Positions 21,865 through 47,955 of a stretch of DNA of 54,844 nt are shown here, one piece after another; the stretch's first letter is position 1, and each line of letters opens with the position of its first letter. The notes beneath the pieces are model-generated. The model saw only the letters and a program-made list of their open reading frames with translations, was not told the origin of the DNA and did no database searches. Source of the DNA: a virus; the IMG/VR virus record IMGVR_UViG_3300032293_001351, positions 1-54,844 of that record; one strand, written 5' to 3'. Made by a program: the position numbers and the translations under genes.

Positions 21865-22185
21865 TTACAACTTTATTGTATACTCTATCAATTGATCTAT
21901 AGAGTGAAAGGCGGTACCTTTAATTTTATCATTAAATATAATTTTTTTACTTATATCTTCATATGTATTTGCTATATATATTATCTCTTCTATAAAATTA
22001 GTATTTATCATTTTTAATACTATAGGATAGTTAGAGCAGCCTATTAAATCTTCAATTGAATCACAAAGTTCCGTATCCGATTTGCAAACTTCATAATCAT
22101 AGTGAATATAGTTTTTACCTAATTCTTGCTTTAGTTTTTCACACTTACTACATCCTTCTAATACTAATAATTTAATCTTATTCAT
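21865..22185 (-). CDS. Glutaredoxin/thioredoxin-fold protein (106 aa)
   Basis: Starts with a strand and the redox motif: KLLVLEGCSKCEKLKQEL, giving C12-x-x-C15. A second strand follows, then SNYPIVLKM where the Pro matches the cis-Pro that faces the CxxC in this fold. T4-like phages often encode glutaredoxins that reduce ribonucleotide reductase. Here the C-terminal half differs from typical glutaredoxins (no GG motif). The start overlaps the end of the upstream small gene. Confidence 0.78.
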   Translation of the reverse strand: MNKIKLLVLEGCSKCEKLKQELGKNYIHYDYEVCKSDTELCDSIEDLIGCSNYPIVLKMINTNFIEEIIYIANTYEDISKKIIFNDKIKGTAFHSIDQLIEYTIKL

Positions 22186-24425: not shown

Positions 24426-25211
24426 ATGATCAAGCTACTAGATTTATTATTAGAAGTAAAAGATGGCAAAAAAGCTATTATAATGGCAGGCGGAGCTGGT
24501 GCCGGCAAATCCACTTTTGTTAAACAGATTAGACCTGACTTAAAAAAAGAAGACTGGATTGAATTGAATGCAGATAAGTATGTAGAAGACAAAGATAGTC
24601 CTATGTACAATAATTTAGCAGGAGCGTCTGTTCAGATTGATAAAAAAGATCTTCCTGAAACAATTCAATCTGGTAAAAATTTTTTATATGATACAACCGG
24701 TACTAATGTAGATAGGGTATCTAATATTAAAGATTCTGGATATAATATTATGATGGTGATGGTATATACTAATCCCATAGTTAGTTTCCTTCGTAACTTT
24801 TCTAGAGAAAGAAAGGTTCCTACTGTTGGAGTATTATCTAGTTGGAATAACGTATATAAGAATATCGATACATATAAAAAAATGTTTGGCGATAATTTTT
24901 ATTTAGTAGAAACAGGAGTATCTGATGAGGAAAAGAAAATGGTAGATGAATTTGAAAAAGCATACAAATCTAATAAACTAAAAGAGTTTTTTGAGCAACT
25001 TTTATCTTCTGGTCAATTTAAGTCTACATTTAAAAAAGATCCTACTAAACAAAAATCTCCTGAAGAAATAGCAAAATCGAAAGCACTTGTTGACAAACAG
25101 ATAGATATATTATCAAATCAGTTTGATACTATAGAAAAACAAGTAACAGAATTAAAAACTCAAGATATGTCAAGTGTTGTGTCTAAAGCAAAATCATTTA
25201 TTAAGTCATGA
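24426..25211 (+). CDS. P-loop kinase with capsid-targeting-like leader (261 aa)
   Basis: Residues 1-10 (MIKLLDLLLE) match the leader of the 29966, 31770 and 32084 products and end in L-x-E. A Walker A follows, GGAGAGKST at 22-30. LNADKY at about 49-54 and FLYDTTGT at 88-95 then match the layout of zeta-toxin/AAA_33 or polynucleotide-kinase-type small kinases. The C-terminal 70 residues are a Lys/Glu-rich coiled coil. Possible substrates are nucleic-acid ends, nucleotide sugars or small metabolites. Its stop overlaps the nucleotidyltransferase start by 4 bases. The combination of a leader peptide and an enzyme suggests delivery inside the virion. Confidence 0.85.
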   Translation: MIKLLDLLLEVKDGKKAIIMAGGAGAGKSTFVKQIRPDLKKEDWIELNADKYVEDKDSPMYNNLAGASVQIDKKDLPETIQSGKNFLYDTTGTNVDRVSNIKDSGYNIMMVMVYTNPIVSFLRNFSRERKVPTVGVLSSWNNVYKNIDTYKKMFGDNFYLVETGVSDEEKKMVDEFEKAYKSNKLKEFFEQLLSSGQFKSTFKKDPTKQKSPEEIAKSKALVDKQIDILSNQFDTIEKQVTELKTQDMSSVVSKAKSFIKS

Positions 25212-25798
25212 TTAACTTCGAACAACTAGGAAGACAGATAGTAGAGGATATTTTAAAAGAAGCATCTCCAGATGTAGGACCTTGTTTTTACCCTGGTAAA
25301 TTTAAACCTCCTCATAAAGGACATTTTGAAGCTGCAAAGTATTTAGCATCTCAAAATTATATTAATAAGGTATATGTTGTTATATCTAATGTTACTAAAT
25401 ACGGTATAACTCCACAAGACTCTCTTTATATTTGGCAAGAGTATCTTAAAGCAGAACCTAATCCTAAAATAGAGGTTTATATATCTAAAGAGTCTACACC
25501 TATAAAAGACATCTTTTCTTTTATGGCAGAGAATCCAGATATTGATCCAGTATACGTTGCATCAGGTGAAAAAGAACAAACAGAATTAGGATATTTTGAT
25601 TCTATACAAAAAAGATTTCCTAATAAAATAAGACCTGAAATTATACCGGCACAATTTGGTAGAATATCTGCAACTCAAATGAGAGCTACAATTAAAGATG
25701 GTAACTTTGAAGAGTTTGTTAAGTTTATTCCAGACTCAGCGTATAATAAAGGAGTTGCAAAAGATGTGTTTGGAAGATTATTGAAAATAATGAAATGA
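25208..25798 (+). CDS. HIGH-type nucleotidyltransferase (196 aa)
   Basis: YPGKFKPPHKGHFEAAKYL carries the H-x-G-H motif (36-39) of the cytidylyltransferase / NMN-adenylyltransferase superfamily, and ISATQMR (153-159) is the matching ISSTxxR motif. These enzymes join a nucleoside monophosphate to a phosphorylated small molecule. The first 19 residues (MINFEQLGRQIVEDILKEA) are an extra amphipathic helix ending near L-K-E, like the other leaders in this cluster. It is translationally coupled to the kinase before it and the fusion protein after it. The pathway could be NAD or nucleotide-sugar chemistry; not decidable here. Confidence 0.88.
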   Translation: MINFEQLGRQIVEDILKEASPDVGPCFYPGKFKPPHKGHFEAAKYLASQNYINKVYVVISNVTKYGITPQDSLYIWQEYLKAEPNPKIEVYISKESTPIKDIFSFMAENPDIDPVYVASGEKEQTELGYFDSIQKRFPNKIRPEIIPAQFGRISATQMRATIKDGNFEEFVKFIPDSAYNKGVAKDVFGRLLKIMK

Positions 25799-27042
25799 TA
25801 CCAGAACAAAGACAAGAGATAATAGAGGATTTTATACAGTTTGTAAAAAACAAACTTGATATAAGTAAACTTCCTACAATCAGGTTTTTAAATGACCGTG
25901 AATGGGCTACTGAAAAAAGAAGTTTTGGACAATATGATCCTAATCAAAGGCACTTAGATGTTTACATAGGCAATAGAAATCTAGCAGATATACTTAGAAC
26001 TTTATGCCATGAATTAGTTCATCATAGACAAAATGAGCTTGGTAAATTATATAATAATGCTGGAGAAACTGGTTCTAATATAGAGAATCAAGCTAATGCT
26101 TTAGCTGGTATAATGATGAGAGATTATGGTAAGACTAATGATCTTATTTATGAATCCCTTCTTCCTAGTCTTAAACAAATCTACGAAGTAGAACAAAAAG
26201 GCGGTATTCAAATCTATTGTGATATGGATGGAGTGTTATGTGATTTTGATGAAAGGTTTGAACATTTTTATGGAATTCCACCTAGAGAATATTATACCAC
26301 AAAAGGTTCTAAAGCATTTGAAGAGGCTGTAAATAAAGCTGGTGTTGACTTTTGGGCTAAGATGAATTGGATGCCTGGAGGCCAAGAATTATGGTCTATT
26401 ATAGGTAAATATAATCCTTACATTCTAACTAGTCCAAGCAAATTTGAGTTTGCTAAAGAAGGAAAAAAGATATGGATAGAAAATAATTTAAATCCTCAAC
26501 CTAGTAAAATATTATTTGCACAGACAGGAAATAAACATTCAGAAATGAAGACAGATCCTAAAAGATCCATCTTAATAGATGACTATTGGCCAAATTTAGC
26601 TCCATGGAAAGCAGAAGGTGGTATTGCAATAATGCACAAAGATATTAATAAAACAAAAGATATATTAAGTAAATTTAGAATAAATGAGGTTAGTTATTCT
26701 AAACCTAATTTTAATGTAGAATGGGAAGAAGCAATTCGATATCCAGAACTTAAAAAAATAGGTAAAGATAATTGGGAGAAGATATCTAAAAAAGGATACA
26801 TAACAAAATATTCTAAAATAAAAGATGCGCTTGGAAATGTAGACTTAAATTTTAATAGTCTAGAAAAAGAAAAAAAACAAAGATTCCAATCCGCCTTTAA
26901 AAAAGGAAAAATAGAAATGCCAATAGCAGTGAAATTTTCTGATTCTGATTATGATCTGTTAGCTGGTAATACAAGACTTTCTGGATTAGTTAATAATGGA
27001 GAAGATCCTAATATTTGGATTGTAGACATTTCTAACTTATAA
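25795..27042 (+). CDS. Three-domain fusion: metallopeptidase-like, HAD phosphatase, ParB-like (415 aa)
   Basis: Domain 1 (about 1-120) has CHELVHHRQNELG, the HExxH zinc site at 72-76. Domain 2 (about 135-300) is HAD-type: YCDMDGVLCDFD with nucleophile Asp143 and Asp145, then LTSPS near 211 and LIDDYWPN near 260-267, as in 5'-nucleotidase-like HAD enzymes. Domain 3 (about 305-415) ends with MPIAVKF...LLAGNTRLSGLVNNG, a ParB/sulfiredoxin-type nucleotide-binding motif. Between domains lie IYE (118-120, 129-131) and INE (296-298) sites that fit the prohead-protease rule. Starts with a helical segment (MIPEQRQEIIEDFIQFV). Third gene of the coupled enzyme trio. I know no characterised protein with this order. 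Confidence 0.85.
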   Translation: MIPEQRQEIIEDFIQFVKNKLDISKLPTIRFLNDREWATEKRSFGQYDPNQRHLDVYIGNRNLADILRTLCHELVHHRQNELGKLYNNAGETGSNIENQANALAGIMMRDYGKTNDLIYESLLPSLKQIYEVEQKGGIQIYCDMDGVLCDFDERFEHFYGIPPREYYTTKGSKAFEEAVNKAGVDFWAKMNWMPGGQELWSIIGKYNPYILTSPSKFEFAKEGKKIWIENNLNPQPSKILFAQTGNKHSEMKTDPKRSILIDDYWPNLAPWKAEGGIAIMHKDINKTKDILSKFRINEVSYSKPNFNVEWEEAIRYPELKKIGKDNWEKISKKGYITKYSKIKDALGNVDLNFNSLEKEKKQRFQSAFKKGKIEMPIAVKFSDSDYDLLAGNTRLSGLVNNGEDPNIWIVDISNL

Positions 27043-27057
27043 AATAAAAATACTGTT

Positions 27058-27636
27058 ATGTTACCAAAAGATTCTACTCTAAAGAAAGAGTTTAAAAAAA
27101 GCGACGTTCAAAGAATGAGAAATATTATCACTGGTAAAACTGGTGATAGAACACAAATTCTTGGAGGTTGGGAAAATAAAATAGAAGAACATAAAGAAGG
27201 TGATATTTGGGAAGAGGATGGAAAGAAGTGGACTATTAAAAATGGCATCAAACAATCTATTACCAAGCTAGATAAGTTTAAGCATCTTATATCTTTACCT
27301 CTTACTTGTCCTAGTTGTAAGAAGCCCATGAAAGCTGATGAACTAAATAAGAAGATGTACTCGCTACATAAAGTTTGTTTGAATTGTGTTGTTGATATGG
27401 AAGCTAAACTCAAAATAGAAGGTAAGTACGAGCAATATGAGAAGAATATTCTTAATATGAATAAAAATGCTAGCCTTGAAGAGTTTGAACAGGCTTTGGA
27501 TTCATGGCTTGAGGAAAAAGATACATTTGTAACTGAACAAGGGGATATTGAAAGTTGGCAAGGTGGAGACAAAAACAAGATATACAAGGAGCTAAAGGAA
27601 AAGATACAGGAGTTTAGGAAAACAGATATTTATTAG
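27058..27636 (+). CDS. Zinc-ribbon protein of unknown function (192 aa)
   Basis: Residues 1-75 contain GKTGDRTQILGGWENK and EGDIWEEDGKKWTIKNGIKQ, a small conserved beta domain found in distant T4-like phages. CPSC at about 94-97 and CLNC at about 117-120 form a four-Cys zinc ribbon, and the C-terminal 60 residues are helical. No catalytic residues. A nucleic-acid-binding or assembly role is possible. It closes the 24411 late transcript; a new late-type motif overlaps its end. Confidence 0.75.
   Translation: MLPKDSTLKKEFKKSDVQRMRNIITGKTGDRTQILGGWENKIEEHKEGDIWEEDGKKWTIKNGIKQSITKLDKFKHLISLPLTCPSCKKPMKADELNKKMYSLHKVCLNCVVDMEAKLKIEGKYEQYEKNILNMNKNASLEEFEQALDSWLEEKDTFVTEQGDIESWQGGDKNKIYKELKEKIQEFRKTDIY
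27626..27633 (+). promoter_or_regulatory. ATATTTAT late-type motif before the 27651 gene
   Basis: Reads cagATATTTATTAGtaaatc, inside the last codons of the zinc-ribbon gene and 17 bases before the next ATG. Confidence 0.5.
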
Positions 27637-27650
27637 TAAATCTATATAGT

Positions 27651-29129
27651 ATGCCATCAGCATCTAAACAACAACAGAAATTAATGGGTATAGTTCATGC
27701 CCTTCAAAAAGGAGATATGAAACCTTCACAAGCATCAGGAAAAGCAAAAGAAATGGCTAAATCAATGAAAAAAGGCGATGTAAAAGACTTCGCTGCAACT
27801 AAACATAAGGGCCTTCCTAAAAAGGTTAAGAAAGAAAATATGGGCGTTGCTTCTATGTATGTAGTACGTAAGCCTAATTCTGAAATGAATGAAGCTGATT
27901 TAGTATTAGAGTTTAATCCACTTGAAGGAATTCAGTCTTTAAATATAAACATGAATGATGTGCATTCTGTATATGCTAGTGCTGAAGATGCTCAAGAAAT
28001 TGCTGCAGAAGTATATAAAAAATGTATGGATGAAGCTTTTCAACTTGAAGAAAAGAAAGGTAAAGTTGGAGACAAGTTGAAAAAAACTATTGACCATCTT
28101 GAAAAGAAGCGTAAAGAACATGTTGATATGGCTAAAGAAGATCCTAAGAATGCTTCTAAGCATAAAGAACATATTGCTAAGATTGCTACACAAATTGATG
28201 ATCTTATGAGTAAGATGGAAAAGATTGAAAAGAGCAAAAAGAATGTTGAGAAAAAAGAAGATAAAGAAAATATTAAAGAAAATAAAAAAAGCACTTATAC
28301 TATAGGAGATAAAACTACTCCAAACGGTAAAGTTTATTTTATATATAATAACGATACTGGCACTCAATCTGGAAGTTACAAAACTAAAGAAGATGCACAA
28401 AAAGTATTAGATAAAAAGAAAAATAGTTTAGAAGAAAGTGTATTAGGCACTATAGCATTAGGAGCAACTCTAGGTATGGGAGTAAATTGGTTAAAGAATA
28501 AGAAAAAGCAAATAGCGGCTGCTGATCAAAGAGATCAGGAAGAAAAAGAGCAAGCTAAAAAAGATCAAGAAAGATTAAAAAAAGTAGAAGATGCAAAAGC
28601 TGTTTTAGAAGATCCCAATAATAAACAAGAGTTGCTTAAAATAAAAAATGATAACGAGATTAAAACTTGGATAAAGACCATAGATACAGAATACAATAAT
28701 TTATATAATAAGTGGGTAGACAGGGGAGGATATAGTACTCTTAATGATGAACCACCTCCTGTATGGGGAGACGGTTCTGATAATTTAATAAAAAATATAG
28801 AGAACAAAATAGTGTCACTTGTTGGAGCAGAAAAAGCTACAGAGTTACTAGGAGCTTTAAAAACATCAGGTAAAGGTTTAGATGCGGGACTAAAAAATGA
28901 AAAAAAACTAAAAGAATCTAGCTTAAATATAGGTGATAATTTAAAAGTTGGAGATAAATTTGTAAAAAAAGATAATCAAGTATTAACAATTAAAAAAATA
29001 GTAGGTGATCAGATTTACTTAGAATCTAATAAATTTGAAGGAAAATTATGGCAATGGCCTAAAGAAATATTTGATGCAGATGTTAAATCTGGTGAGCTTA
29101 GATGGCAACCTAAACAAAAACAAGACTAA
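27651..29129 (+). CDS. Multi-module virion-type protein with N-terminal DUF3008 (492 aa)
   Basis: Residues 1-58 (PSASKQQQKLMGIVHALQKG ... DFAATKHKGLPKKV) match the DUF3008 domain of phage and bacterial small proteins. A helical Lys/Glu-rich coiled coil follows at about 125-205, then a small beta module (STYTIGDKTTPNGKVYF), a short hydrophobic segment near 265-280 (SVLGTIALGATLGMGVNWL) and another coiled coil. The end is a beta module (LKVGDKFVKKDNQVLTIKK). Modules are separated by L-x-E[S/A] strings (LEESV, LKESS). This looks like several small domains strung together and possibly cut apart by the prohead protease. Stop and next start overlap as TAATG. Confidence 0.8.
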   Translation: MPSASKQQQKLMGIVHALQKGDMKPSQASGKAKEMAKSMKKGDVKDFAATKHKGLPKKVKKENMGVASMYVVRKPNSEMNEADLVLEFNPLEGIQSLNINMNDVHSVYASAEDAQEIAAEVYKKCMDEAFQLEEKKGKVGDKLKKTIDHLEKKRKEHVDMAKEDPKNASKHKEHIAKIATQIDDLMSKMEKIEKSKKNVEKKEDKENIKENKKSTYTIGDKTTPNGKVYFIYNNDTGTQSGSYKTKEDAQKVLDKKKNSLEESVLGTIALGATLGMGVNWLKNKKKQIAAADQRDQEEKEQAKKDQERLKKVEDAKAVLEDPNNKQELLKIKNDNEIKTWIKTIDTEYNNLYNKWVDRGGYSTLNDEPPPVWGDGSDNLIKNIENKIVSLVGAEKATELLGALKTSGKGLDAGLKNEKKLKESSLNIGDNLKVGDKFVKKDNQVLTIKKIVGDQIYLESNKFEGKLWQWPKEIFDADVKSGELRWQPKQKQD

Positions 29130-29500
29130 TGGAAGCCTTAGGTTTATTTCTTGGAACATTAATGCAGTCTAGAAATCAGGCTCATATATATCATTTACAA
29201 GTACAAGGTCCTGGATCTTTTGCAGCTCATAAAGCTTTGCAAGAATACTATGAGGATATAATACCTTTAATAGATGGGATTGCAGAAGGTATACAGGGTC
29301 GCTATGGTATTATAACAGGATATAAAATGCCTGAAGCTATTCGTGAAGATAATAGTCCTAAAATGTATTTTGAAGGACTTTCTAAGTTTGTAGAAATGAT
29401 CAGACAGGATATTCCTCAAGACTCTTATATTCAAAATGAAGTTGACACTGTTGTTGATCTTATAGAATCTACTAAGTATAAACTCAAATTCTTACAGTAA
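29129..29500 (+). CDS. Dps/ferritin-like protein, DUF5856-type (123 aa)
   Basis: Four-helix pattern with H22, H34, D49 and E53. The spacing H-x11-H-x14-D-x3-E equals that of the Dps ferroxidase centre (E. coli H51, H63, D78, E82, from memory). The local text HLQVQGPGSFAAHKAL and LIDGIAEGIQG also reads like Dps. The third Dps carboxylate (D67) is Gln here. Length 123 is shorter than Dps (about 165), lacking N-terminal DNA-binding and C-terminal parts. It may bind iron or only keep the fold. Coupled by TAATG overlaps to both neighbours, within the putative cargo cluster. Confidence 0.7.
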   Translation: MEALGLFLGTLMQSRNQAHIYHLQVQGPGSFAAHKALQEYYEDIIPLIDGIAEGIQGRYGIITGYKMPEAIREDNSPKMYFEGLSKFVEMIRQDIPQDSYIQNEVDTVVDLIESTKYKLKFLQ

Positions 29501-29964
29501 TGGATAAAGCTTTATTATCTCAAATAAAGAAAGGCATAGAAGTTGAGATGGAGCATACTGATGATCCTAAAATAGCTTTAAAAATAGCTTTAGATCATAT
29601 TAAAGAAGATCCTAAATACTACGATAAACTAATTAAAGCAGGGCTTGAAGAATTAAATGAGGGAGAATTTTGTCCTCAATGTTTAGCTCAATATATAAAA
29701 GATCATGCTAACTCTTTACAAGAAGCAGAGTACAAAGGTAGAAAAGTACAACTAGGAAAACCAATGGCCGGCGATGTTAAAAAGTTTAAGGTGTATGTTA
29801 AGAACGCTAAAGGAAATGTTGTTAAAGTAAATTTTGGCCAGAAAGGAGTAAAAATAAAAAAGGGTAATCCTAAAAGAAGAAAGAGTTTTAGAGCAAGACA
29901 TCACTGTGATACTAATCCAGGACCAAGATGGAAAGCTAGATACTGGTCATGTAGAAAGTGGTAA
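29500..29964 (+). CDS. DUF5661-like plus basic Cys domain, probable head cargo (154 aa)
   Basis: Residues 5-45 (IKKGIEVEMEHTDDPKIALK, then HIKEDPKYYDKL) match DUF5661. A middle linker has FCPQC and SLQEAEY (L-Q-E site). Residues 80-154 form a second conserved domain: GKPMAGDVKKFKVYVKNAKG, then KRRKSFRARHHCDTNPGP and a Cys-Trp end. It is very basic (many Lys/Arg), so it probably binds DNA. Modular build and neighbours suggest a packaged protein; no enzymatic motif seen. Confidence 0.8.
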   Translation: MDKALLSQIKKGIEVEMEHTDDPKIALKIALDHIKEDPKYYDKLIKAGLEELNEGEFCPQCLAQYIKDHANSLQEAEYKGRKVQLGKPMAGDVKKFKVYVKNAKGNVVKVNFGQKGVKIKKGNPKRRKSFRARHHCDTNPGPRWKARYWSCRKW

Positions 29965-29965
29965 T

Positions 29966-30469
29966 ATGATTAAACTATTAGATATATTATTAGAAATGTA
30001 TCCGCCATATAGATCTGATATGGTTAAAAAAGTAAGATACAAAGCTTCTGATACGTGGACCAATAACCCAGACTTAATAGAATTAGATCCCAAAAAAGGT
30101 ACTGGTAAAAAACCTAAAGGATCAGACCGCAGATTATATACAGATGAGAACCCTAAAGATACTGTTAGTGTAAAATTTAAAACAGTTCAAGATATAAAAG
30201 ACACGCTATCTAAGAGTGAGTTCAAATCTAAACCACATGCTAGACAGTCACAAATTATTAATCTAATACATCAGAGAGTTAGAGCAGCTTATAGTAAAGC
30301 TAAAGATCCTGAAGTAAAAGCTAGACTAAAACGTGGATTAGATTATATCGAATCTCGTAAAGAAGCATCAAAAGAAAAAACTAAACGTTTAAATAAAGTA
30401 AAAGAAACAGCAGATCCACAATCAGGAAAAGCAGCACCATATGGTTCTGGTTATGGAGAAGTAAAATAA
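29966..30469 (+). CDS. Basic protein with capsid-targeting-like leader (167 aa)
   Basis: The start is chosen at the ATG of MIKLLDILLEMYPPYRSD. An upstream in-frame start at 29906 would read through the previous gene's coding end and lose the leader. Residues 1-10 end in L-L-E and nearly repeat the kinase leader. The remainder is Lys-rich, with helices at about 85-140 (HARQSQIINLIHQRVRAAYS, ARLKRGLDYIESRKEA) and a Gly-rich tail. Likely DNA-binding cargo; family not recognised. Confidence 0.75.
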   Translation: MIKLLDILLEMYPPYRSDMVKKVRYKASDTWTNNPDLIELDPKKGTGKKPKGSDRRLYTDENPKDTVSVKFKTVQDIKDTLSKSEFKSKPHARQSQIINLIHQRVRAAYSKAKDPEVKARLKRGLDYIESRKEASKEKTKRLNKVKETADPQSGKAAPYGSGYGEVK

Positions 30470-30486
30470 AAATTTAAATAAGTTTC

Positions 30487-31188
30487 ATGTCATTTTTAAA
30501 TACTGCAATACCTGTTACAGAAGCATTTATTAGAGGAAATTTTTTAAGAAATCAAGAAGATTCATTTGATAAAAAGTTTCCATGTTATATTTTTGGAATG
30601 GCTTCAATTCCTTCTCAAGCTCCATTATTTCACTTTATTATGGAAGATGGAGGTTTATGGTGGAGAATGCCAATTCATGCATTTTGTTGGAAAGAAGATG
30701 CTATACAACAAGAATTAGATGAATTAGTTTTATGGGATTCTTTTACATATCATGTATCAGTAACATCTTTTCCTTTACTCAAAAACAAAACTTGCAAATT
30801 TATTTCGAGAAGAAGAATAAAGTATTCAGGAAGATATCTCTTTACTTTAGATTGGTCTAGTTCTGATGATATGAGTGATACAGATTTTGGATTGAGTGAA
30901 TTTCCATCTCAACATAAGTGTGGACATTTTATAGCCATGGATAATGGAAATTTTGCAATACAACCTAATAATCGATTAACAATTCATGATCCGTCTTTTA
31001 CAGTAAAAGAAGATGTTGTTATTAATAGAAAGTATAATACTACTTTATGGACTGCTGAAAGAAATTCAAGATGGGTAACCCCAGATACAGATATTATGAA
31101 TTATGATCATACTAATTTAGAGTCCGGGGAATCTAACTATGAAAGATCTAAAATGTATAATCAATTAGATAATGAAACTGATATTTGA
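30487..31188 (+). CDS. Protein of unknown function, aromatic-rich (233 aa)
   Basis: Trp/Phe/His-rich globular sequence (LFHFIMEDGGLWWRMPIHAF, LVLWDSFTYHVSVTSF, FTLDWSSSDD). It lacks the leader peptide and Lys-rich character of its neighbours. The C-terminal part has Asn/Asp-rich strands (RWVTPDTDIMNYDHTN). I have the impression it belongs to a family seen in other T4-like marine phages, but no function is known. Overlaps the following gene by 17 bases. Confidence 0.75.
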   Translation: MSFLNTAIPVTEAFIRGNFLRNQEDSFDKKFPCYIFGMASIPSQAPLFHFIMEDGGLWWRMPIHAFCWKEDAIQQELDELVLWDSFTYHVSVTSFPLLKNKTCKFISRRRIKYSGRYLFTLDWSSSDDMSDTDFGLSEFPSQHKCGHFIAMDNGNFAIQPNNRLTIHDPSFTVKEDVVINRKYNTTLWTAERNSRWVTPDTDIMNYDHTNLESGESNYERSKMYNQLDNETDI

Positions 31189-31708
31189 TCATTCTTCAAG
31201 TGTTTACAATGGTCAAAATCCCCTAATCTATTTAGAAGCTAAAAGAGATAGCGAATCAGCTAAATACATGTTTGAAAATGGATGGGTTGTTTATTATAAA
31301 GACAATCAGGAATACTGGTATCAAACTCAATCTTCAAGATTAAAGATACAAGAAATTTCTAGCAAAAGAAAAAACCAACTATCCAAAATAAAAATCTCTT
31401 CACATACAGAAAACAAACAAATAGAAACCCCATCAGATCTACAACTTTATAATCAAGGAAAATTTGAAGACTTTTTTTTTGATGATCTTTTTTGGGGTAG
31501 GATAATCTATGTAGAAGATCAAGTATTGTTCTCTGTCATGAATGAAATAAAAAGTAAAAAGTCATATGGAACTCTTTCATTTTACTACTTACTAAAAAAA
31601 CTTATAAATGACTATGAGTATTTGTATTTAGCTGATTATTTTGATATTTTCAATTATAAAAATAAGTTACAGGGTTTTGAATATTGGGATGGAAATACCT
31701 GGAAATAG
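31172..31708 (+). CDS. Protein of unknown function (178 aa)
   Basis: Starts MKLIFDHSSSVYNGQNP inside the end of the previous gene in another frame. Basic in the middle (SSKRKNQLSKIKIS), Tyr/Phe-rich at the end (YLYLADYFDIFNYKNKL, FEYWDGNTW). The 'YLY-x-ADYFDIFNYK' end faintly recalls acyltransferase (GNAT-like) folds, not enough to assign. Together with the 30487 gene it forms a pair unlike the surrounding cargo-type genes. Confidence 0.7.
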   Translation: MKLIFDHSSSVYNGQNPLIYLEAKRDSESAKYMFENGWVVYYKDNQEYWYQTQSSRLKIQEISSKRKNQLSKIKISSHTENKQIETPSDLQLYNQGKFEDFFFDDLFWGRIIYVEDQVLFSVMNEIKSKKSYGTLSFYYLLKKLINDYEYLYLADYFDIFNYKNKLQGFEYWDGNTWK

Positions 31709-31755
31709 TATAAATATGATAAGTGTAGTAAACTCCAACTTTAATTAATAGCCAG

Positions 31756-31763
31756 ATATTTAT
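31756..31763 (+). promoter_or_regulatory. ATATTTAT late-type motif before the 31770 gene
   Basis: Reads cagATATTTATATTcat then ATG, 6 bases on. It starts a run of five coupled cargo-type genes. Confidence 0.5.
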
Positions 31764-31769
31764 ATTCAT

Positions 31770-32087
31770 ATGACAAAGCTTCTAGACATTTTAAAGGAAA
31801 TTAAAGAGTCTTTCATAGATTTTGCAGAAACCAGAATGAAGGGTGCAGAGAAGATTGCAAATAATGCAAAAGAAAAAGGTGGACTTTCTATGCTTACTTA
31901 CAGCCACTTTATAGTAAAGCTTCCATATTATAAGAAAGCTAAACAAGGTGAGTTTAATATAGAAGAAGCTAAAAAAGAATATGATAAAACATATAAAAGT
32001 ATATCTTTGAATATGACTCAAACAGAGTTTCAAAGAGAGGTTGGTAGACTAGAAGTATTAGGTGAACTAATAATTAGAAATAAATGA
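31770..32087 (+). CDS. Small protein with capsid-targeting-like leader (105 aa)
   Basis: Leader MTKLLDILKEIKES ends in L-K-E at residue 10. The body is helical and basic (FAETRMKGAEKIANNAKEKG, EEAKKEYDKTYKSI) with a central LTYSHFIVKLPYYKKAK. No catalytic motif. Stop overlaps the next start by 4 bases (ATGA). Confidence 0.72.
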   Translation: MTKLLDILKEIKESFIDFAETRMKGAEKIANNAKEKGGLSMLTYSHFIVKLPYYKKAKQGEFNIEEAKKEYDKTYKSISLNMTQTEFQREVGRLEVLGELIIRNK

Positions 32088-32614
32088 TCAAGCTTAAAGA
32101 CATATTAAATGAAGTTATCTCAGAAATGGGAGTAATGACAATACAACCCATTCTAGATTTGTATGATCAAAATCCTGAATTAGTATCTAAAGTAGTATTC
32201 CCTTATCATAAACTAAGATCTAAAGAAGATGTACAAGAGGAACTTTTAGGGATGGAATATGAAGAGTTTGATTCAATAAGAAGAGAATTAGATTTAAATC
32301 CTTTAGAAGAAGCTTGTTGGAAAGGATATAGACAAAAAGGATTAAAAAAGAAAGGGAATAGAATGGTTCCTAATTGTGTTAGAATAAGTGAAACAAAAAA
32401 GAAAAATAAAGTTAATCCTGCATATCTTACTAAAGATGCAGCGGCAATGAAAAAAGAGATTGATAGAGTAAAGAAGTTAAAGTCTGATGATCCTTCAGCA
32501 TATGGTAAATGGGATGCTGATTATTCAGATAAGGCTAAAACTAAGAAGTATAAGACTAAGAAAAGTGCGGCAACTTCTGCTTACGAAAAAAGGTTTGGTA
32601 AAAAAGAAAAATAA
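32084..32614 (+). CDS. Modular basic protein with capsid-targeting-like leader (176 aa)
   Basis: Leader MIKLKDILNEVISE ends in L-N-E. A helical module follows (PILDLYDQNPELVSKVVFPY). Then comes L-E-E-A and a short Cys module (CWKGYRQKGLKKKGNRMVPN, then Cys), which I recall as a recurring element in environmental T4-like phages. I-S-E follows, and a Lys/Asp/Ala-rich end (YKTKKSAATSAYEKRFGKK). Three small modules are thus separated by L/I-x-E strings. Likely DNA-associated cargo. Confidence 0.75.
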   Translation: MIKLKDILNEVISEMGVMTIQPILDLYDQNPELVSKVVFPYHKLRSKEDVQEELLGMEYEEFDSIRRELDLNPLEEACWKGYRQKGLKKKGNRMVPNCVRISETKKKNKVNPAYLTKDAAAMKKEIDRVKKLKSDDPSAYGKWDADYSDKAKTKKYKTKKSAATSAYEKRFGKKEK

Positions 32615-32889
32615 TGAAACTAAAAGAACTATTACAACAGTTAGTTGAAGAAAAATTAAAGTTTCAGCATTCTAATGCACCAGATGCAAAAGGTAGATTT
32701 AAAGAGTTGCCAGCAGAAAAATTAGCTAATTGGTTGATTAAAACAAGAAAAAGTAATATGAGTAAGATAACAGGCTCATTAAACCAACAAGCTAATTTTA
32801 ATCGTAAAGATGATCCTGCTTATGCAAGGAAGATGGATAGAACTAGAGAGATAGTTAAAAAGAAACTAGATAAAAAGAAAAAGAAATGA
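32614..32889 (+). CDS. Small basic protein with leader-like N-terminus (91 aa)
   Basis: MKLKELLQQLVEEKLKF is a leader-like helix. The conserved core is LPAEKLANWLIKTRKSNMSK followed by TGSLNQQANFNRKDDPAY, a helix pair with an Asn/Gln-rich loop. The C-terminus is almost pure Lys/Arg. Probably binds DNA. Overlaps neighbours by 1 and 4 bases. Confidence 0.72.
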   Translation: MKLKELLQQLVEEKLKFQHSNAPDAKGRFKELPAEKLANWLIKTRKSNMSKITGSLNQQANFNRKDDPAYARKMDRTREIVKKKLDKKKKK

Positions 32890-33173
32890 TAAATAAATTA
32901 GATATATTAAAACAATTACTCATTCTTGAGTATGATGCTGAAGTAGAAAAAGCATTAGCAAATAAAGCTAAGGCTACTAAAATATCTAAATCGATACTCA
33001 AAAGTGTTTATGCCAAAGGTGTGGCAGCTTGGAAAACAGGACATCGTCCTGGAGTTGGTCAACATCAATGGGCAATGGGTAGGGTAAATTCATTTGTAAC
33101 AGGTAAAGGTGGAGCAAGAAAAGCAGATAAAAGTTTATGGAAAAAAGCAAGTAAATCTAAAAAGAAAAAATAA
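32886..33173 (+). CDS. DUF5824-like small protein with leader-like N-terminus (95 aa)
   Basis: Leader MINKLDILKQLLILE ends in I-L-E. Residues 34-75 (SILKSVYAKGVAAWKTGHRP, then QHQWAMGRVNSF) match DUF5824, a small domain found across several unrelated phage groups, function unknown. Lys-rich tail. The domain is widely shared, but the leader is specific to this cluster, as if the module had been recruited. Confidence 0.78.
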   Translation: MINKLDILKQLLILEYDAEVEKALANKAKATKISKSILKSVYAKGVAAWKTGHRPGVGQHQWAMGRVNSFVTGKGGARKADKSLWKKASKSKKKK

Positions 33174-33174
33174 A

Positions 33175-33858
33175 ATGACTAATATTTCATTCTTTAAGGC
33201 TCTTTTAATGAAAGAGTTGAACGAAAAAGATCTTCCTGGAAATCAAGAAAAGATAGCACAAGCAGCTGAACCTAAAGATAAAATTACTGGTGCAGACTTT
33301 GCTGCACTTCGTGCAAAAAAAGATGTAAAAAAAGAAGGTGAAGACCATGAAGTATCAATGGCTCAAAATAGCCTTAAATCAATTATAAGTTCAGCAAGTC
33401 AATTAATGAATATGTTAGGTCAAGATGAGAAAGATATCCCAGCTTGGATCCAAGATCATATTACTAATGCAGAGAACTTTATTAATCAAGCTTCTAAAAA
33501 TTATCACGAATATAACGAAGGTAATACTGGTGAGTATGATATGGATGAACTTCCAGATGGGACAGTTGAAAAGTCAGCAGGTGATGCAGAAGATTTAGAT
33601 ATGAAACTTCAATCTATGATGGAAGCCAAGTTTATTAGTTTTAAAGATTTTTCTAAAAATTTAGAATTGTATAAAAAAGAAAATATCACTAAATCTCAAC
33701 TTATTACTTCTTATAATAAGTTAAATGCAAAAGATCAAGATAAAGCTAAGGAACTTGCTAAAGGTTTAGATGTGTTACCTAGTCCAAAAAAGATTAACGA
33801 AACTTCTCTTAAATCTATGATGGAAAGTGTTGTAAAGCGTAAAAAAGCAAATAAATAA
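33175..33858 (+). CDS. Helical cargo-type protein (227 aa)
   Basis: The start is at the ATG two bases after the previous stop (MTNISFFKALLMKELNE, ending L-N-E). An earlier in-frame start would lie within the previous gene. Residues 60-115 (MAQNSLKSIISSASQLMNML, then IPAWIQDHITNAENFINQAS) form a helical module that recurs in T4-like marine phages. SMMEAKFIS and SLKSMMESVV near the end repeat a leader-like pattern. No enzyme motif. Confidence 0.75.
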   Translation: MTNISFFKALLMKELNEKDLPGNQEKIAQAAEPKDKITGADFAALRAKKDVKKEGEDHEVSMAQNSLKSIISSASQLMNMLGQDEKDIPAWIQDHITNAENFINQASKNYHEYNEGNTGEYDMDELPDGTVEKSAGDAEDLDMKLQSMMEAKFISFKDFSKNLELYKKENITKSQLITSYNKLNAKDQDKAKELAKGLDVLPSPKKINETSLKSMMESVVKRKKANK

Positions 33859-35750
33859 TGCCAGTGAGTAACCAAGACATATTAAAAACAATACTCTTAC
33901 AAGAGTTAGATAGGATGGAACCTGAACAATCAACGTTTGAGGATGATCCTATGCAGTTTATATTAAAAAAGTATGTAGGACTTAAGAATACTCTTGAGTA
34001 TCTTATGACTCCTTCATTTGAAGAATATATCACTGGTATATATGTAGTTGCTCCTAAGCCAACAACATTTAAAATTGTTTTACATAATGGACAATTCTTT
34101 TTCTTGCAGTTCATGGGTAAAGCTTATGAAGCAACTGTAGAAGGAAAGAAATACTATTTAATGTCTATTGGTGAAAAAGAAAGATGTATGGTTGCAATAT
34201 CAAGGCTTCTTAGGTTTGGCAATCCTTTAAAGACCAAGGGACCAGATGGTGCAGAGCAAGGTACTAGAGATTCAGAAGGACCTGCAGAAGAAGCAGGACC
34301 AACACCACCAGCAGAAACTAGTGCAGAAGAAGGCGGAGGAGAAGAGTTAACGGAGTCTAGGATATTAGAGGGCATTTTAAAAAAAAACCTAACCACCGAA
34401 TTAACTATAAGCCCTGATTATAAAACAAAATCAGGTTTTAATCCTTACTATACATTAAAGGATGATGTAAAAAATGATATTGCAAAAGCAGCTAAAGTAG
34501 ATCCTAGTAAAATAATTTTTAAAAGTACTAATGATCCTAAAGGCAAACCTGCTTTAAATAGAAAAGGAAACTATTCTTTTCAAGTCAGTATAGATCAAGA
34601 TGGAAATATAAAAGATACAAATTTTTATGTTAAAGCATCTAAATCTGAAGTTACTGGTCACTATGGAACAGAAAAAAGGAAAGACTCTACTGCATCTTCT
34701 GATGTTAATGAATTTTTAACCGTTTATTTTTTGATAAATAATTTTAAAGGTACACCTGAAGAATTTATAAAATTTGTTAAAGGTAAAAAAGGATCTACTG
34801 GAGTTAAAACTGGAGATGGTGAAGATGTGATGTATGATAGATTATACAAAATGTTGGAAAAAGATCAGAGTCCTGAAAGAGATATTGCAATAGGAATCAA
34901 TAATGCTAAAGCAGTTAAATCTGATATAGGAGGAAATACTAAGTCTATTTCTCAAGTTTATTGGACTCCTAGAACAAAACCTGAAGGAGTTGCAAGCAAA
35001 AATCCTTCAGATGTGTTAATTAAATTTAAAGATGGGAGCTTTCTAGGATACTCTAATAAAATAACTGGTAAAGGTCCTGATGTAACTCCTAAATTTAATA
35101 CAAGCCTATCTGCATTTTCTAGTAAAATTGGAGATAGTCAACAGGATCAAAATATAAAAGATATAGTTGACAATTCTTGGAAACAAGCTGCAAAAAAAGT
35201 AAAAGGACCTAATGCATCTAAAGCTATTAAGTCTTTTGACATTTCTAAAGAGAAACATTCTGAAACTACTAGTAGGGGCGCTTTTGCAAATCTTGCTAGA
35301 GAGTTTGATAAAGACGGATTAGACTTTTATACAGACGGTTTTTATTACCCTTTTAGAAATCAACTTATACAAAATTTAGGAGAATACTGGTCAGATCCTG
35401 TAAATTTAGCGTATTTATTAAAGACAATAGGATTTTATACTTATGGAGAAGTTGATCCTAATATAACAGATGCGCCTTATAAATTATTAATAGGCACTGT
35501 GGATGGATCTACAATAAAAGATATTACTTCTGATGAAGAATCAAAAATATTATTAACAAAGTCTACTCCTAAAAATATAAAAAATATAGAGTTTGTATAC
35601 CCTGGAAATGGTCAATCGTTCGCTATTAAATTTTATAGTTCTTTAATTAAATCAAATGTAAACATACCTTTGACTGTAAGAACTAGAGCCTCTGGTGGCT
35701 GGGCGGGAAAATCACTTTATATTAATACTCCAGGTTTAAAAATAGGATAA
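33858..35750 (+). CDS. Two-part virion-type protein with internal leader-like peptide (630 aa)
   Basis: Leader-like start MPVSNQDILKTILLQELDR. Domain 1 (about 20-125) is a compact alpha/beta unit (SFEEYITGIYVVAPKPTTFK). Residues 126-163 are an acidic Glu/Gly/Pro/Ala linker. Then LTESRILEGILKKNL (164-178) repeats the leader pattern inside the chain, with L-T-E and I-L-E sites. Domain 2 (about 182-630) is unrecognised; DVLIKFKDGSFLGYSNK (385-401) weakly resembles a PD-(D/E)XK strand pair, but an acidic residue is missing. The protein may be a fusion of two cargo proteins, cut at the linker during head maturation. Confidence 0.75.
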   Translation: MPVSNQDILKTILLQELDRMEPEQSTFEDDPMQFILKKYVGLKNTLEYLMTPSFEEYITGIYVVAPKPTTFKIVLHNGQFFFLQFMGKAYEATVEGKKYYLMSIGEKERCMVAISRLLRFGNPLKTKGPDGAEQGTRDSEGPAEEAGPTPPAETSAEEGGGEELTESRILEGILKKNLTTELTISPDYKTKSGFNPYYTLKDDVKNDIAKAAKVDPSKIIFKSTNDPKGKPALNRKGNYSFQVSIDQDGNIKDTNFYVKASKSEVTGHYGTEKRKDSTASSDVNEFLTVYFLINNFKGTPEEFIKFVKGKKGSTGVKTGDGEDVMYDRLYKMLEKDQSPERDIAIGINNAKAVKSDIGGNTKSISQVYWTPRTKPEGVASKNPSDVLIKFKDGSFLGYSNKITGKGPDVTPKFNTSLSAFSSKIGDSQQDQNIKDIVDNSWKQAAKKVKGPNASKAIKSFDISKEKHSETTSRGAFANLAREFDKDGLDFYTDGFYYPFRNQLIQNLGEYWSDPVNLAYLLKTIGFYTYGEVDPNITDAPYKLLIGTVDGSTIKDITSDEESKILLTKSTPKNIKNIEFVYPGNGQSFAIKFYSSLIKSNVNIPLTVRTRASGGWAGKSLYINTPGLKIG

Positions 35751-35765
35751 AAATAAATTTTTTTA

Positions 35766-35789
35766 TTTCAATTATTTGTTGTATATTAG
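35766..35789 (+). promoter_or_regulatory. Middle-type promoter element before the 35805 gene
   Basis: Contains ATTTGTTGTATATTAG preceded by TTTCAATT, matching 23 of 24 bases of the element at 22607-22630 on the other strand. It ends 15 bases before the ATG. It gives one small gene its own non-late promoter inside a late region. Confidence 0.7.
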
Positions 35790-35804
35790 CCATAAATTAA
35801 TCAC

Positions 35805-36050
35805 ATGGCAAAGAAAGATACAATCTATAGAACAATAAAGACTATAGAAGGAACAACAATCCACATTTACGAAGACGAAAAAGGTGCTACAAAACCCCAT
35901 TGCGCCACTGGCCCTGCTATTCTTTACTCTAAAGGACAGAATAAACAAGATGAATACTATTTGTTTGGAGTTAAATACGATTATGATAAATGGCTAGAAT
36001 TATCTAGACCTTTAAGGAAAGCCGCTACTAAAGAAGATTTTGTTGATTGA
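35805..36050 (+). CDS. Small protein of unknown function with middle-type promoter (81 aa)
   Basis: MAKKDTIYRTIKTIEGTTIH, then HCATGPAILYSKGQNKQDEY and LFGVKYDYDKWLELSRPL. The 'GPAxxY...G...yyLFGxxxdydkW' arrangement occurs in small phage proteins with MORN-like turns. No enzymatic motif. Its separate promoter class, lack of leader peptide and position between two late transcripts suggest a regulatory or takeover role expressed before the structural genes. Confidence 0.75.
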   Translation: MAKKDTIYRTIKTIEGTTIHIYEDEKGATKPHCATGPAILYSKGQNKQDEYYLFGVKYDYDKWLELSRPLRKAATKEDFVD

Positions 36051-36053
36051 TAA

Positions 36054-36061
36054 ATATTTAT
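36054..36061 (+). promoter_or_regulatory. ATATTTAT late-type motif before the 36078 gene
   Basis: Reads gataaATATTTATAAGtaaatg, 16 bases before the ATG. Late transcription toward terminase, portal and head genes probably starts or restarts here. Confidence 0.5.
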
Positions 36062-36077
36062 AAGTAAATGTACGACC

Positions 36078-36428
36078 ATGTCATTTAACTTAGAAAAGTA
36101 TTTAGTTGAAAACAATCTTACCATAATCTCTAGAATTAGAGAAGAGGAAGATATGGAGGTAGAACCTTCAAAAGATGATCTTAAACAATCTGAAAAAGAC
36201 TTTAGATCTATAGATAAAAAGAAGAAAGAGCTTGCAAATCTTCAACAACAAGTAAAAACAATCCTTGCTAAATATACAGAAAGAGGACCCGATGGTAATC
36301 TTAAACTTAAAGATGTAGCTGGATATAAGAACGCTGTTGGAAATATTCCTGATAGAATTAAGCTTCTCAAAGCCCAGATAGACAAAGTAGAAAATCCTAA
36401 ATTAGATTCAGATGAAGAAGACAATTAG
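36078..36428 (+). CDS. Coiled-coil protein with packaged-protein-like N-terminus (116 aa)
   Basis: MSFNLEKYLVENNLTIISRI resembles the start of the 376-aa product at 1529. The rest is a Lys/Glu coiled coil (FRSIDKKKKELANLQQQVKT) with a short Gly/Pro break and an acidic tail. The stop lies 14 bases inside the next gene. Perhaps a core or cargo protein. Confidence 0.72.
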   Translation: MSFNLEKYLVENNLTIISRIREEEDMEVEPSKDDLKQSEKDFRSIDKKKKELANLQQQVKTILAKYTERGPDGNLKLKDVAGYKNAVGNIPDRIKLLKAQIDKVENPKLDSDEEDN

Positions 36429-46288: not shown

Positions 46289-46311
46289 CAAAAAACAAAA
46301 TTAATAACAAA

Positions 46312-47955
46312 ATGGCAAATTTAGTACAATCTTTATTGACTGAATCCGCTAATACAGCTTTCTCTGATCAACATGGTGTTGCTCAGCGTCTTGCTAAAAA
46401 GTGGAGCAAGTCAGGCCTTCTCGAGGGCATGCAAGATTACGACGCTAACAACATGGCGGTAATCCTCGAAAACCAAGCTAAACAGCTTGTAGTTGAATCT
46501 TCTAATACTAACGGTGGTCTTAATTCTGGCGGTGCTACCTTTACTCCTGGTACTGGTGAGCAGTGGGCTGGTGTAGCTCTTCCATTAGTTCGTAAGATCT
46601 TTGGTCAAATCGCTGCTAAAGAATTCGTTTCTGTACAGCCTATGAATCTTCCTGCTGGTTTGGTATTCTATCTTGATTTCCAATACGGAAACACTAAGAA
46701 TCCTTTCACTGCTGGTGATTCTATTTATGGTACTCCAAGTGCAAACTTTGGTAACCTTGCTGAAGGTGCTCTTTATGGTGCTGGTCGCTTTGGTTATTCT
46801 TTGAACCAATTTTCAGCTTCTGGCGTAACTGCTACTGCAGCTACTGCATCTTATGCTGAGATTGAATTCAATGTTAACTTTTCTGCATCTGTTGCTGCTG
46901 GTCAAGTTAAAAAACTTACTGTTGCAACTTCTTCTTTAACTACTCCAAATCTTGATGGAGTACGTGCATTTATTGTTACTTCTGGATCAGTATCTGTTGC
47001 TGATAACTTGCAGCAGTTTACTAGACTTAATGGTGCTAACATTGATTTCTTTGTTACTGCATCTACAGCAGAAATTCCAACATTGAATGCTTTTGTTGTT
47101 TATTATAACAAAGCTACTGATTTCAACAGTCGTGGTGATTTTGAAGATAGAACTGGTAACCCATCTGTTCCAAACAGTTTGTCTGCAACTTCTATCGTTA
47201 TCCCTGAGATCAATGTTCAAATGAAGTCTCAAACAATCAGTGCTAAAACTCGTAAGTTGAAAGCACAATGGACTCCAGAATTTGCACAAGACTTGAATGC
47301 TTACCATTCTCTTGACGCTGAAGCTGAATTGACTGGTCTTCTTTCTGAGCATATCTCTCTTGAGATTGACTTGGAAGTATTGGATATGTTAATTCAAAAC
47401 GCTCCAACTATTGAGTACTGGTCAGCTAAAGTTGGTGAGCAAATCAACTCAACAAACACTGCTTTCACAAGCAATACTGCTGGTGTTTATTACACTCAAA
47501 TGAGCTGGTTCCAGACTTTGGGTATCAAACTTCAGAAAGTATCTAATATCATCCATCAGCGTACTTTACGTGGTGGTGCTAACTTCATGGTAGTTTCTCC
47601 TTCTGTAGCTACAATTCTTGAGTCTATCCCAGGATTTGCTGCTGATACTGATGGTGCAGCTGATACAATGAAGTATGCTTTTGGTGTACAAAAAATCGGT
47701 CAGTTGAACAGCCGTTACAAGGTTTATAAAAACCCTTACATGCTTGAGAACGTTATCTTGCTCGGTTTCCGTGGCAATCAGTTCCTTGAGTGTGGCGCTG
47801 TTTACTCTCCATATGTTCCATTGATCATGACTCCACTTGTGTACGATCCAAATACCTTCACTCCAAGAAAAGGTATTATGACTCGTTACGCAATGACTAT
47901 GGTACGTCCTGAATACTATGGCTTGGTAGTAGTAGCTGATCTTAACGTAGTGTAA
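46312..47955 (+). CDS. gp23: Major capsid protein, T4 gp23-like (547 aa)
   Basis: Start chosen at MANLVQSLLTESA, which gives a T4-like N-terminal arm. The in-frame ATG at 46261 lies inside the scaffold gene. Conserved gp23 text: VALPLVRKIFGQIAAKEFVSVQPMNLPAGLVFYLDF, KLKAQWTPEFAQDLNAYHSLDAEAELTGLLS and YKVYKNPYMLENVILLGFRG. A V-V-E site at residues 60-62 corresponds in position to the gp23 maturation cut (after residue 65 in T4). LTE and LLE lie earlier in the arm. It forms the capsid hexamers. A strong terminator follows. Confidence 0.97.
   Translation: MANLVQSLLTESANTAFSDQHGVAQRLAKKWSKSGLLEGMQDYDANNMAVILENQAKQLVVESSNTNGGLNSGGATFTPGTGEQWAGVALPLVRKIFGQIAAKEFVSVQPMNLPAGLVFYLDFQYGNTKNPFTAGDSIYGTPSANFGNLAEGALYGAGRFGYSLNQFSASGVTATAATASYAEIEFNVNFSASVAAGQVKKLTVATSSLTTPNLDGVRAFIVTSGSVSVADNLQQFTRLNGANIDFFVTASTAEIPTLNAFVVYYNKATDFNSRGDFEDRTGNPSVPNSLSATSIVIPEINVQMKSQTISAKTRKLKAQWTPEFAQDLNAYHSLDAEAELTGLLSEHISLEIDLEVLDMLIQNAPTIEYWSAKVGEQINSTNTAFTSNTAGVYYTQMSWFQTLGIKLQKVSNIIHQRTLRGGANFMVVSPSVATILESIPGFAADTDGAADTMKYAFGVQKIGQLNSRYKVYKNPYMLENVILLGFRGNQFLECGAVYSPYVPLIMTPLVYDPNTFTPRKGIMTRYAMTMVRPEYYGLVVVADLNVV

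Follow-up and report, generated by a model that had tools for sequence, protein, structure and literature searches.

Gene organization at the locus

The window (the whole stretch of DNA analyzed, a 54.8 kb virus record) belongs to a T4-like phage. The gene studied here is a 123-aa ORF on the + strand (translation checked); genes for terminase, portal, head maturation protease and major head protein are located downstream of it on the same strand, and baseplate genes are found on the - strand. Based on terminase and capsid proteins, the nearest cultured relatives were Flavobacterium phage immuto and Microcystis phage Mel-JY01. In 80 related loci, the ORF was found to be part of a conserved block of genes on the same strand, which precedes terminase and portal. 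The gene and its neighbors are as follows:

25795..27042, + strand, neighbor with a 5'-deoxyribonucleotidase-like domain and other sequence (PHROG 2643); on the same strand in 70 of 80 related loci
27058..27636, + strand, neighbor of unknown function; 75 of 80 loci
27651..29129, + strand, upstream neighbor with a DUF3008 N-terminus (PF11450) and a stop codon that runs into the start of the Dps-like gene; 76 of 80 loci
29129..29500, + strand, putative Dps-like miniferritin ORF, DUF5856/PHROG 858 (profile, PDB sequence match, conservation and predicted fold)
29500..29964, + strand, downstream neighbor, DUF5661 (PF18905), whose start overlaps the stop of the Dps-like gene; 78 of 80 loci

The sequence TAATG occurs at both junctions, giving a one-base overlap with each neighbor, and the Dps-like ORF is therefore probably translated within an operon. 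It is a real gene. For three relatives of more than 80% nucleotide identity, the dN/dS ratio was 0.02–0.06; values for more divergent pairs went up to 0.11, and 2 of the 7 pairs had saturated dS. The encoded protein is acidic (pI 4.9, net charge -6) and has His only at positions 19, 22 and 34, with none after residue 34. Parts of the block are also kept in immuto, and no Dps-like gene was detected in the 25 kb examined around the homologous block of that phage, suggesting that the gene is accessory and dispensable in some relatives.

Several other ORFs in the window were inspected. Beside the block, a cytidyltransferase/NMN adenylyltransferase-like ORF (25208-25798) precedes the deoxyribonucleotidase-like ORF (25795-27042), and a single NadR-type gene of immuto (907 aa) matches both of them, which suggests gene splitting or fusion. 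The ORF at 30487-31188, which has a counterpart in immuto, matched PHROG 3704 'ferredoxin' at 170 bits; it contains no obvious iron-sulfur cysteine motif, and this name looks doubtful. A 106-aa ORF at 21865-22185 has an early CxxC (CSKC) and appeared glutaredoxin-like by eye. Finally, long proline/valine/glutamate repeat frames on the - strand at the end of the window (52373-54697) are probably antisense frames of a repetitive gene on the + strand.

A phage protein family with several names

The Dps-like ORF matched DUF5856 (PF19174) at 62.0 bits, above the Pfam gathering cut-off of 34.6, and PHROG 858 at 69.9 bits. Its score with the Pfam Ferritin model (PF00210) was 19.7 bits, below the cut-off of 24.5; this model was matched by 4 of 69 relatives at E≤0.01 and by none in 13 related viral records, and it misses DUF5856 itself. 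Relatives were collected from IMG/VR scans and annotated phages, and the DUF5856 cut-off was also exceeded by the copies in T2, LIMEstone1, a Jiaodavirus, Munch and Mel-JY01. Members that already carry names include rI.-1 of T2 and of RB49, Vi01_092c, LIMEstone1 ORF78 and the Munch 'ferritin-like protein'. A profile built without Straboviridae and Ackermannviridae members recovered T2 rI.-1, RB49 rI.-1 and the Vi01, Dickeya JA15 and Munch proteins with E-values from 1e-23 to 3e-15 (scaled to a search of 1,000 sequences). This cross-recovery, together with the DUF5856 scores, indicates one phage family under several unconnected names. Besides T-even phages, hundreds of others carry it, and its labels include 'unknown function' (Pfam), 'starvation-inducible transcriptional regulator' (PHROGs) and lysis-inhibition accessory (T4 rI.-1). 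A peptide scan of bacterial and archaeal genomes detected no relative.

Other DUF5856 members differ from the window copy in gene neighborhood, and most have a shorter loop between helices A and B than the one in the window, which contains GPG. The Straboviridae copies (L085:2950-3336 in T2 and L082:2941-3339 in RB49) have an N-terminal extension, MKFSDF..., that is absent from the window copy and could be a head-targeting segment.

Classical Dps genes are known in Lactobacillus, Streptomyces and Bacteroides phages (PMC8008677). The Lactobacillus and Streptomyces phage proteins match bacterial Dps directly by tblastn, whereas DUF5856 forms a separate and more divergent branch, which is missed by direct Dps searches.

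Residues of the putative ferroxidase site

A phmmer search against PDB gave convincing E-values for Dps-type proteins only, with HP-NAP (1ji4) ranking first (E=3.4e-4), and a profile of 31 relatives matched S. aureus Dps (2d5k, E=4.9e-5) and B. subtilis MrgA (E 7e-5). It had been proposed from the sequence that the protein keeps the Dps ferroxidase spacing. The residue numbers H22, H34, D49 and E53 were confirmed in the translation, and in the 1ji4 alignment the arrangement H22-x11-H34-x14-D49-x3-E53 equals that of HP-NAP H25/H37/D52/E56. These HP-NAP residues are perfectly conserved across Dps proteins, in which the center is built from two His of one subunit and Asp/Glu of the other (PMC4192664). 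In the same study, His22 and Tyr44 are located near the HP-NAP center, and a His22-Asp52 salt bridge is present in the apo form. Residues of interest in the Dps-like ORF are listed below, with counts referring to 92 non-redundant homologs and E. coli equivalents being those expected from the model:

29183..29185, + strand, His19 codon, second shell; HP-NAP His22; 90/92
29192..29194, + strand, His22 codon; HP-NAP His25, E. coli Dps His51; 92/92
29228..29230, + strand, His34 codon; HP-NAP His37, E. coli Dps His63; 92/92
29240..29242, + strand, Gln38 codon; aligned with the third carboxylate of Dps, HP-NAP Glu41 and E. coli Asp67; residue varies among family members
29249..29251, + strand, Tyr41 codon; HP-NAP Tyr44 beside the center; Tyr in 90/92, Phe in 2
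29273..29275, + strand, Asp49 codon; HP-NAP Asp52, E. coli Dps Asp78; 92/92
29285..29287, + strand, Glu53 codon; HP-NAP Glu56, E. coli Dps Glu82; 92/92

For the conservation analysis, 278 loci were collapsed at 90% identity to the 92 sequences, some of which are near 25% identical. Four of 120 columns were invariant, and these were exactly H22, H34, D49 and E53; every aligned copy of other DUF5856 members has the four residues, as in the window. The conservation in homologs by which the original prediction was to be checked was thus found. We considered whether the choice of search peptide could have produced this invariance. This was rejected, as all four residues were present in 62 of 62 homologs containing a search peptide that avoids them.

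Of 8941 unrelated open frames with at least 60 codons, 10 contained the exact pattern. This background, considered together with the 62-bit DUF5856 and 69.9-bit PHROG 858 scores, argues that the Dps-like pattern is not due to chance. The spacing, however, holds for the Dps-like ORF itself and is not a constant of the family, since H-x11-H varies among relatives. In 55 of 81 rows of a close alignment, the three loop residues GPG are missing, which gives H22-x8-H31 and led us to reject a fixed Dps spacing as a family trait; with the A-B loop three residues shorter in most relatives, the constraint appears to be on the site residues and not on the spacing. A regular-expression count of the exact pattern (277 of 280) is an inflated figure because H19 supplies the H-x11-H spacing in short-loop members.

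The Gln proposed at the position of the third Dps carboxylate was verified as Q38. Q predominates at this position in the family, and other branches have G, N, D or E (D/E in T2, RB49 and Munch; G in Ackermannviridae). The position of HP-NAP Trp26 is occupied by Leu.

Comparison with Dps and ferritins

An AlphaFold2 monomer prediction from 69 sequences yielded a four-helix bundle (pLDDT 94.8, pTM 0.87) with helices at 2-24, 30-59, 77-94 and 99-121. The short BC helix of Dps is absent from this model, in which residues 60-76 are predicted without a helix at a pLDDT of about 90. Using VIA-align, all 123 residues were superposed on M. smegmatis Dps2 (Z 13.2, rmsd 2.7 Å) and 122 residues on E. coli Dps 30-166 (Z 12.6, rmsd 2.6 Å), and nearly all of the top 50 superposition matches were Dps. 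The model of the LIMEstone1 homolog (pLDDT 92.0) was superposed over 117 residues with Z 14.4 and rmsd 2.1 Å. A Z near 13 by itself is not specific among helical bundles, and Foldseek matches of the Dps-like model to PDB were weak (best E-value 0.027); the Dps case therefore rests on the fold and the sequence site together. The equal loop length suggests that there is no gap from helix A to mid-helix B; in that case, H22/H34/D49/E53 would fall on E. coli H51/H63/D78/E82. A profile comparison with the single E. coli Dps sequence gave a probability of 11.9 and the right register for H34, D49 and E53.

The protein thus has in common with Dps (HP-NAP 1ji4, MrgA 2chp, E. coli 1dps and M. smegmatis Dps2 2z90) a four-helix bundle superposable over its full length, the same H-x11-H-x14-D-x3-E center with His on helices A and B and Asp/Glu on helix B, and the second-shell His and Tyr. 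It differs in size (123 aa, compared with about 145–170 aa for Dps), in the Gln and Leu that replace the third carboxylate and Trp, in the predicted absence of the BC helix and in the absence of the basic tail through which some Dps bind DNA. Ferritin and bacterioferritin have the same superfamily fold; however, they hold iron within one subunit via ExxH, and a center of this type was rejected for the Dps-like ORF, which has no ExxH and only three His. With the four residues present in 92 of 92 sequences and superposition on Dps over the whole length, the description of the product as a short ferritin-like protein, with a Dps-type site, was borne out.

Homologs in virions and the head cargo question

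Homologs of the Dps-like protein have been detected in virion proteomes of other phages. LIMEstone1 ORF78, an 'unknown structural protein' of 13.15 kDa, was identified by 3 peptides at 28% coverage (PMC3296691). The LIMEstone1 homolog has a computed mass of 13,148.7 Da, its locus order beside primase and F-LimV is kept, and its sequence is identical to the JA15 copy; this agreement in mass, locus order and sequence indicates that ORF78 is the homolog. Sajous1 gp217 was represented by 10 spectra in CsCl-purified virions and had a Phyre2 ferritin match (PMC10892097). We found it to be a 117-aa homolog at the homologous locus, identical to the Vi01 homolog. In purified virions of Klebsiella phages ValerieMcCarty03/04, 26/27 spectra were reported for an entry assigned here by its PHROG 858 name alone (PMC13119998). 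All these detections are from phages other than that of the window and have modest counts, and carry-over is possible.

The neighborhood was also searched for signs of head targeting. T4 head proteins are cleaved after LxE-type motifs. Among the 18 ORFs in the block 24426-36428, 11 have a hydrophobic start ending in [LIV]xE, compared with 3 of 21 tail-side ORFs (p = 0.003) and with a background of 5% of internal segments; these starts resemble T4 capsid-targeting/prohead-protease cleavage sites, and immuto has similar N-terminal starts. Such starts were seen, for example, in the + strand ORFs at 24426, 29966, 31770, 32084, 32614, 32886, 33175, 33858 and 36078, and the major capsid protein (46309-47955) has a start of the same type: MMANLVQSLLTE. 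Unlike these probable cargo neighbors, the Dps-like ORF has no LxE-type N-terminus by sequence check. The proposal that it is encoded among probable head cargo is thus upheld by the conserved block, the LxE neighbors and the virion homologs and is weakened by its own N-terminus, and head cargo status of the protein is plausible.

In BFVD, three viral proteins named 'Prohead protease' (333–763 aa; ranks 23, 34 and 40) contain a region with the Dps-like fold. If these prove to be protease-Dps fusions, they would point independently to Dps domains in proheads.

Proposed function and alternative explanations

Taken together, these analyses make it reasonably probable that the Dps-like ORF encodes a compact inter-subunit, Dps-type miniferritin ferroxidase, acting in virions or late in infection. 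By analogy with the Dps family, its subunits would pair and bind iron at the interface through H22/H34 from one partner and D49/E53 from its neighbor, and Fe(II) would be oxidized, in Dps typically by peroxide, and then stored in a small shell. As suggested by the virion homologs, the protein may be a late product of the head/packaging operon, and at least some of it may be carried out of the cell in the particle. Fe(II) and peroxide would then be removed in the vicinity of phage DNA, either within the particle or soon after entry, and DNA would be protected by chemistry and not by coating. The earlier suggestion that the protein could shield incoming DNA does not hold in the sense of contact, given the charge of the protein and the lack of a basic tail. 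Coating of DNA through such a tail was rejected since helix A begins at residue 2 and the net charge is -6, and direct DNA coating is, from these sequence features, unlikely. The fullest form of the proposal is offered tentatively. In it, DUF5856, with T-even rI.-1 among its members, would be a phage-specific miniferritin that virions contain and introduce along with the genome, and this head-resident or injected ferroxidase would guard phage DNA against Fenton chemistry inside the particle or during entry.

A somewhat doubtful alternative is that the ferroxidase is active only in the infected cell, where it would curb iron and peroxide late in infection, and that its detection in virions reflects carry-over. 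Dps proteins work in the cytoplasm, the authors of the Sajous1 proteome cautioned about debris at low counts (PMC10892097), the LxE-type N-terminus is absent, and the T2 and RB49 copies are located beside rI and tk, outside head operons. On the other hand, three separate virion preparations contain homologs, the ValerieMcCarty count is above the cut-off of 15 spectra used by its authors (PMC13119998), and the block that contains the gene in the window lineage is conserved and immediately precedes terminase.

It is unlikely that the protein is a structural offshoot in which the Dps fold was kept and ferroxidase activity was lost. This would be consistent with the unconserved third carboxylate and Trp, the missing BC helix, the short loops and the 'structural' label of the LIMEstone1 and JA15 copies. 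However, if the protein served purely as a scaffold, one would not expect the invariant positions in 92 sequences to be precisely the four metal ligands.

We consider quite improbable a role in lysis timing and not in iron metabolism, i.e., the lysis-inhibition accessory function proposed for T4 rI.-1. Over-expression of T4 rI.-1 caused a slight lysis delay under lysis inhibition (PMC6832632), and the T2 and RB49 copies directly adjoin rI, but the members in the window, Ackermannviridae and P19250A have no rI neighbor, RaK2 has a copy while T holin and RI are missing (PMC3622015), and lysis timing does not explain why exactly the iron site is invariant. The Ferrojan horse mechanism, in which virion-tail iron aids adsorption via iron-uptake receptors, was proposed for Sajous1 gp217 from its Phyre2 ferritin match and virion detection, but it is hardly credible here, as tonB, feoB and double-mutant Salmonella were still susceptible with titers mostly near wild type (PMC10892097) and the window gene is located on the head/packaging side of the + strand, apart from the tail genes, which are encoded on the - strand.

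Implications for DUF5856 and rI.-1

A link to Dps or ferritin was already hinted at by the PHROGs and Munch annotations, and a virion ferritin in Vi01-like phages has been suggested once (PMC10892097). No mention of DUF5856 was found in the literature searched, and a coherent account of the family seems to have been missing so far. What appears to be new is the joined account, i.e., one phage family that includes rI.-1, has the Dps iron ligands as its only invariant residues and occurs in virions, with the BC helix and third carboxylate absent. Scattered labels are thereby joined into one testable statement: a minimal Dps with an invariant iron site and relatives in virions. If the miniferritin reading is right, it would provide a biochemical function for rI.-1 and a very small natural Dps, and a phage-borne defense against iron and peroxide would be directly testable in laboratory T4. 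Some phages may thus carry their own iron-detoxifying protein.
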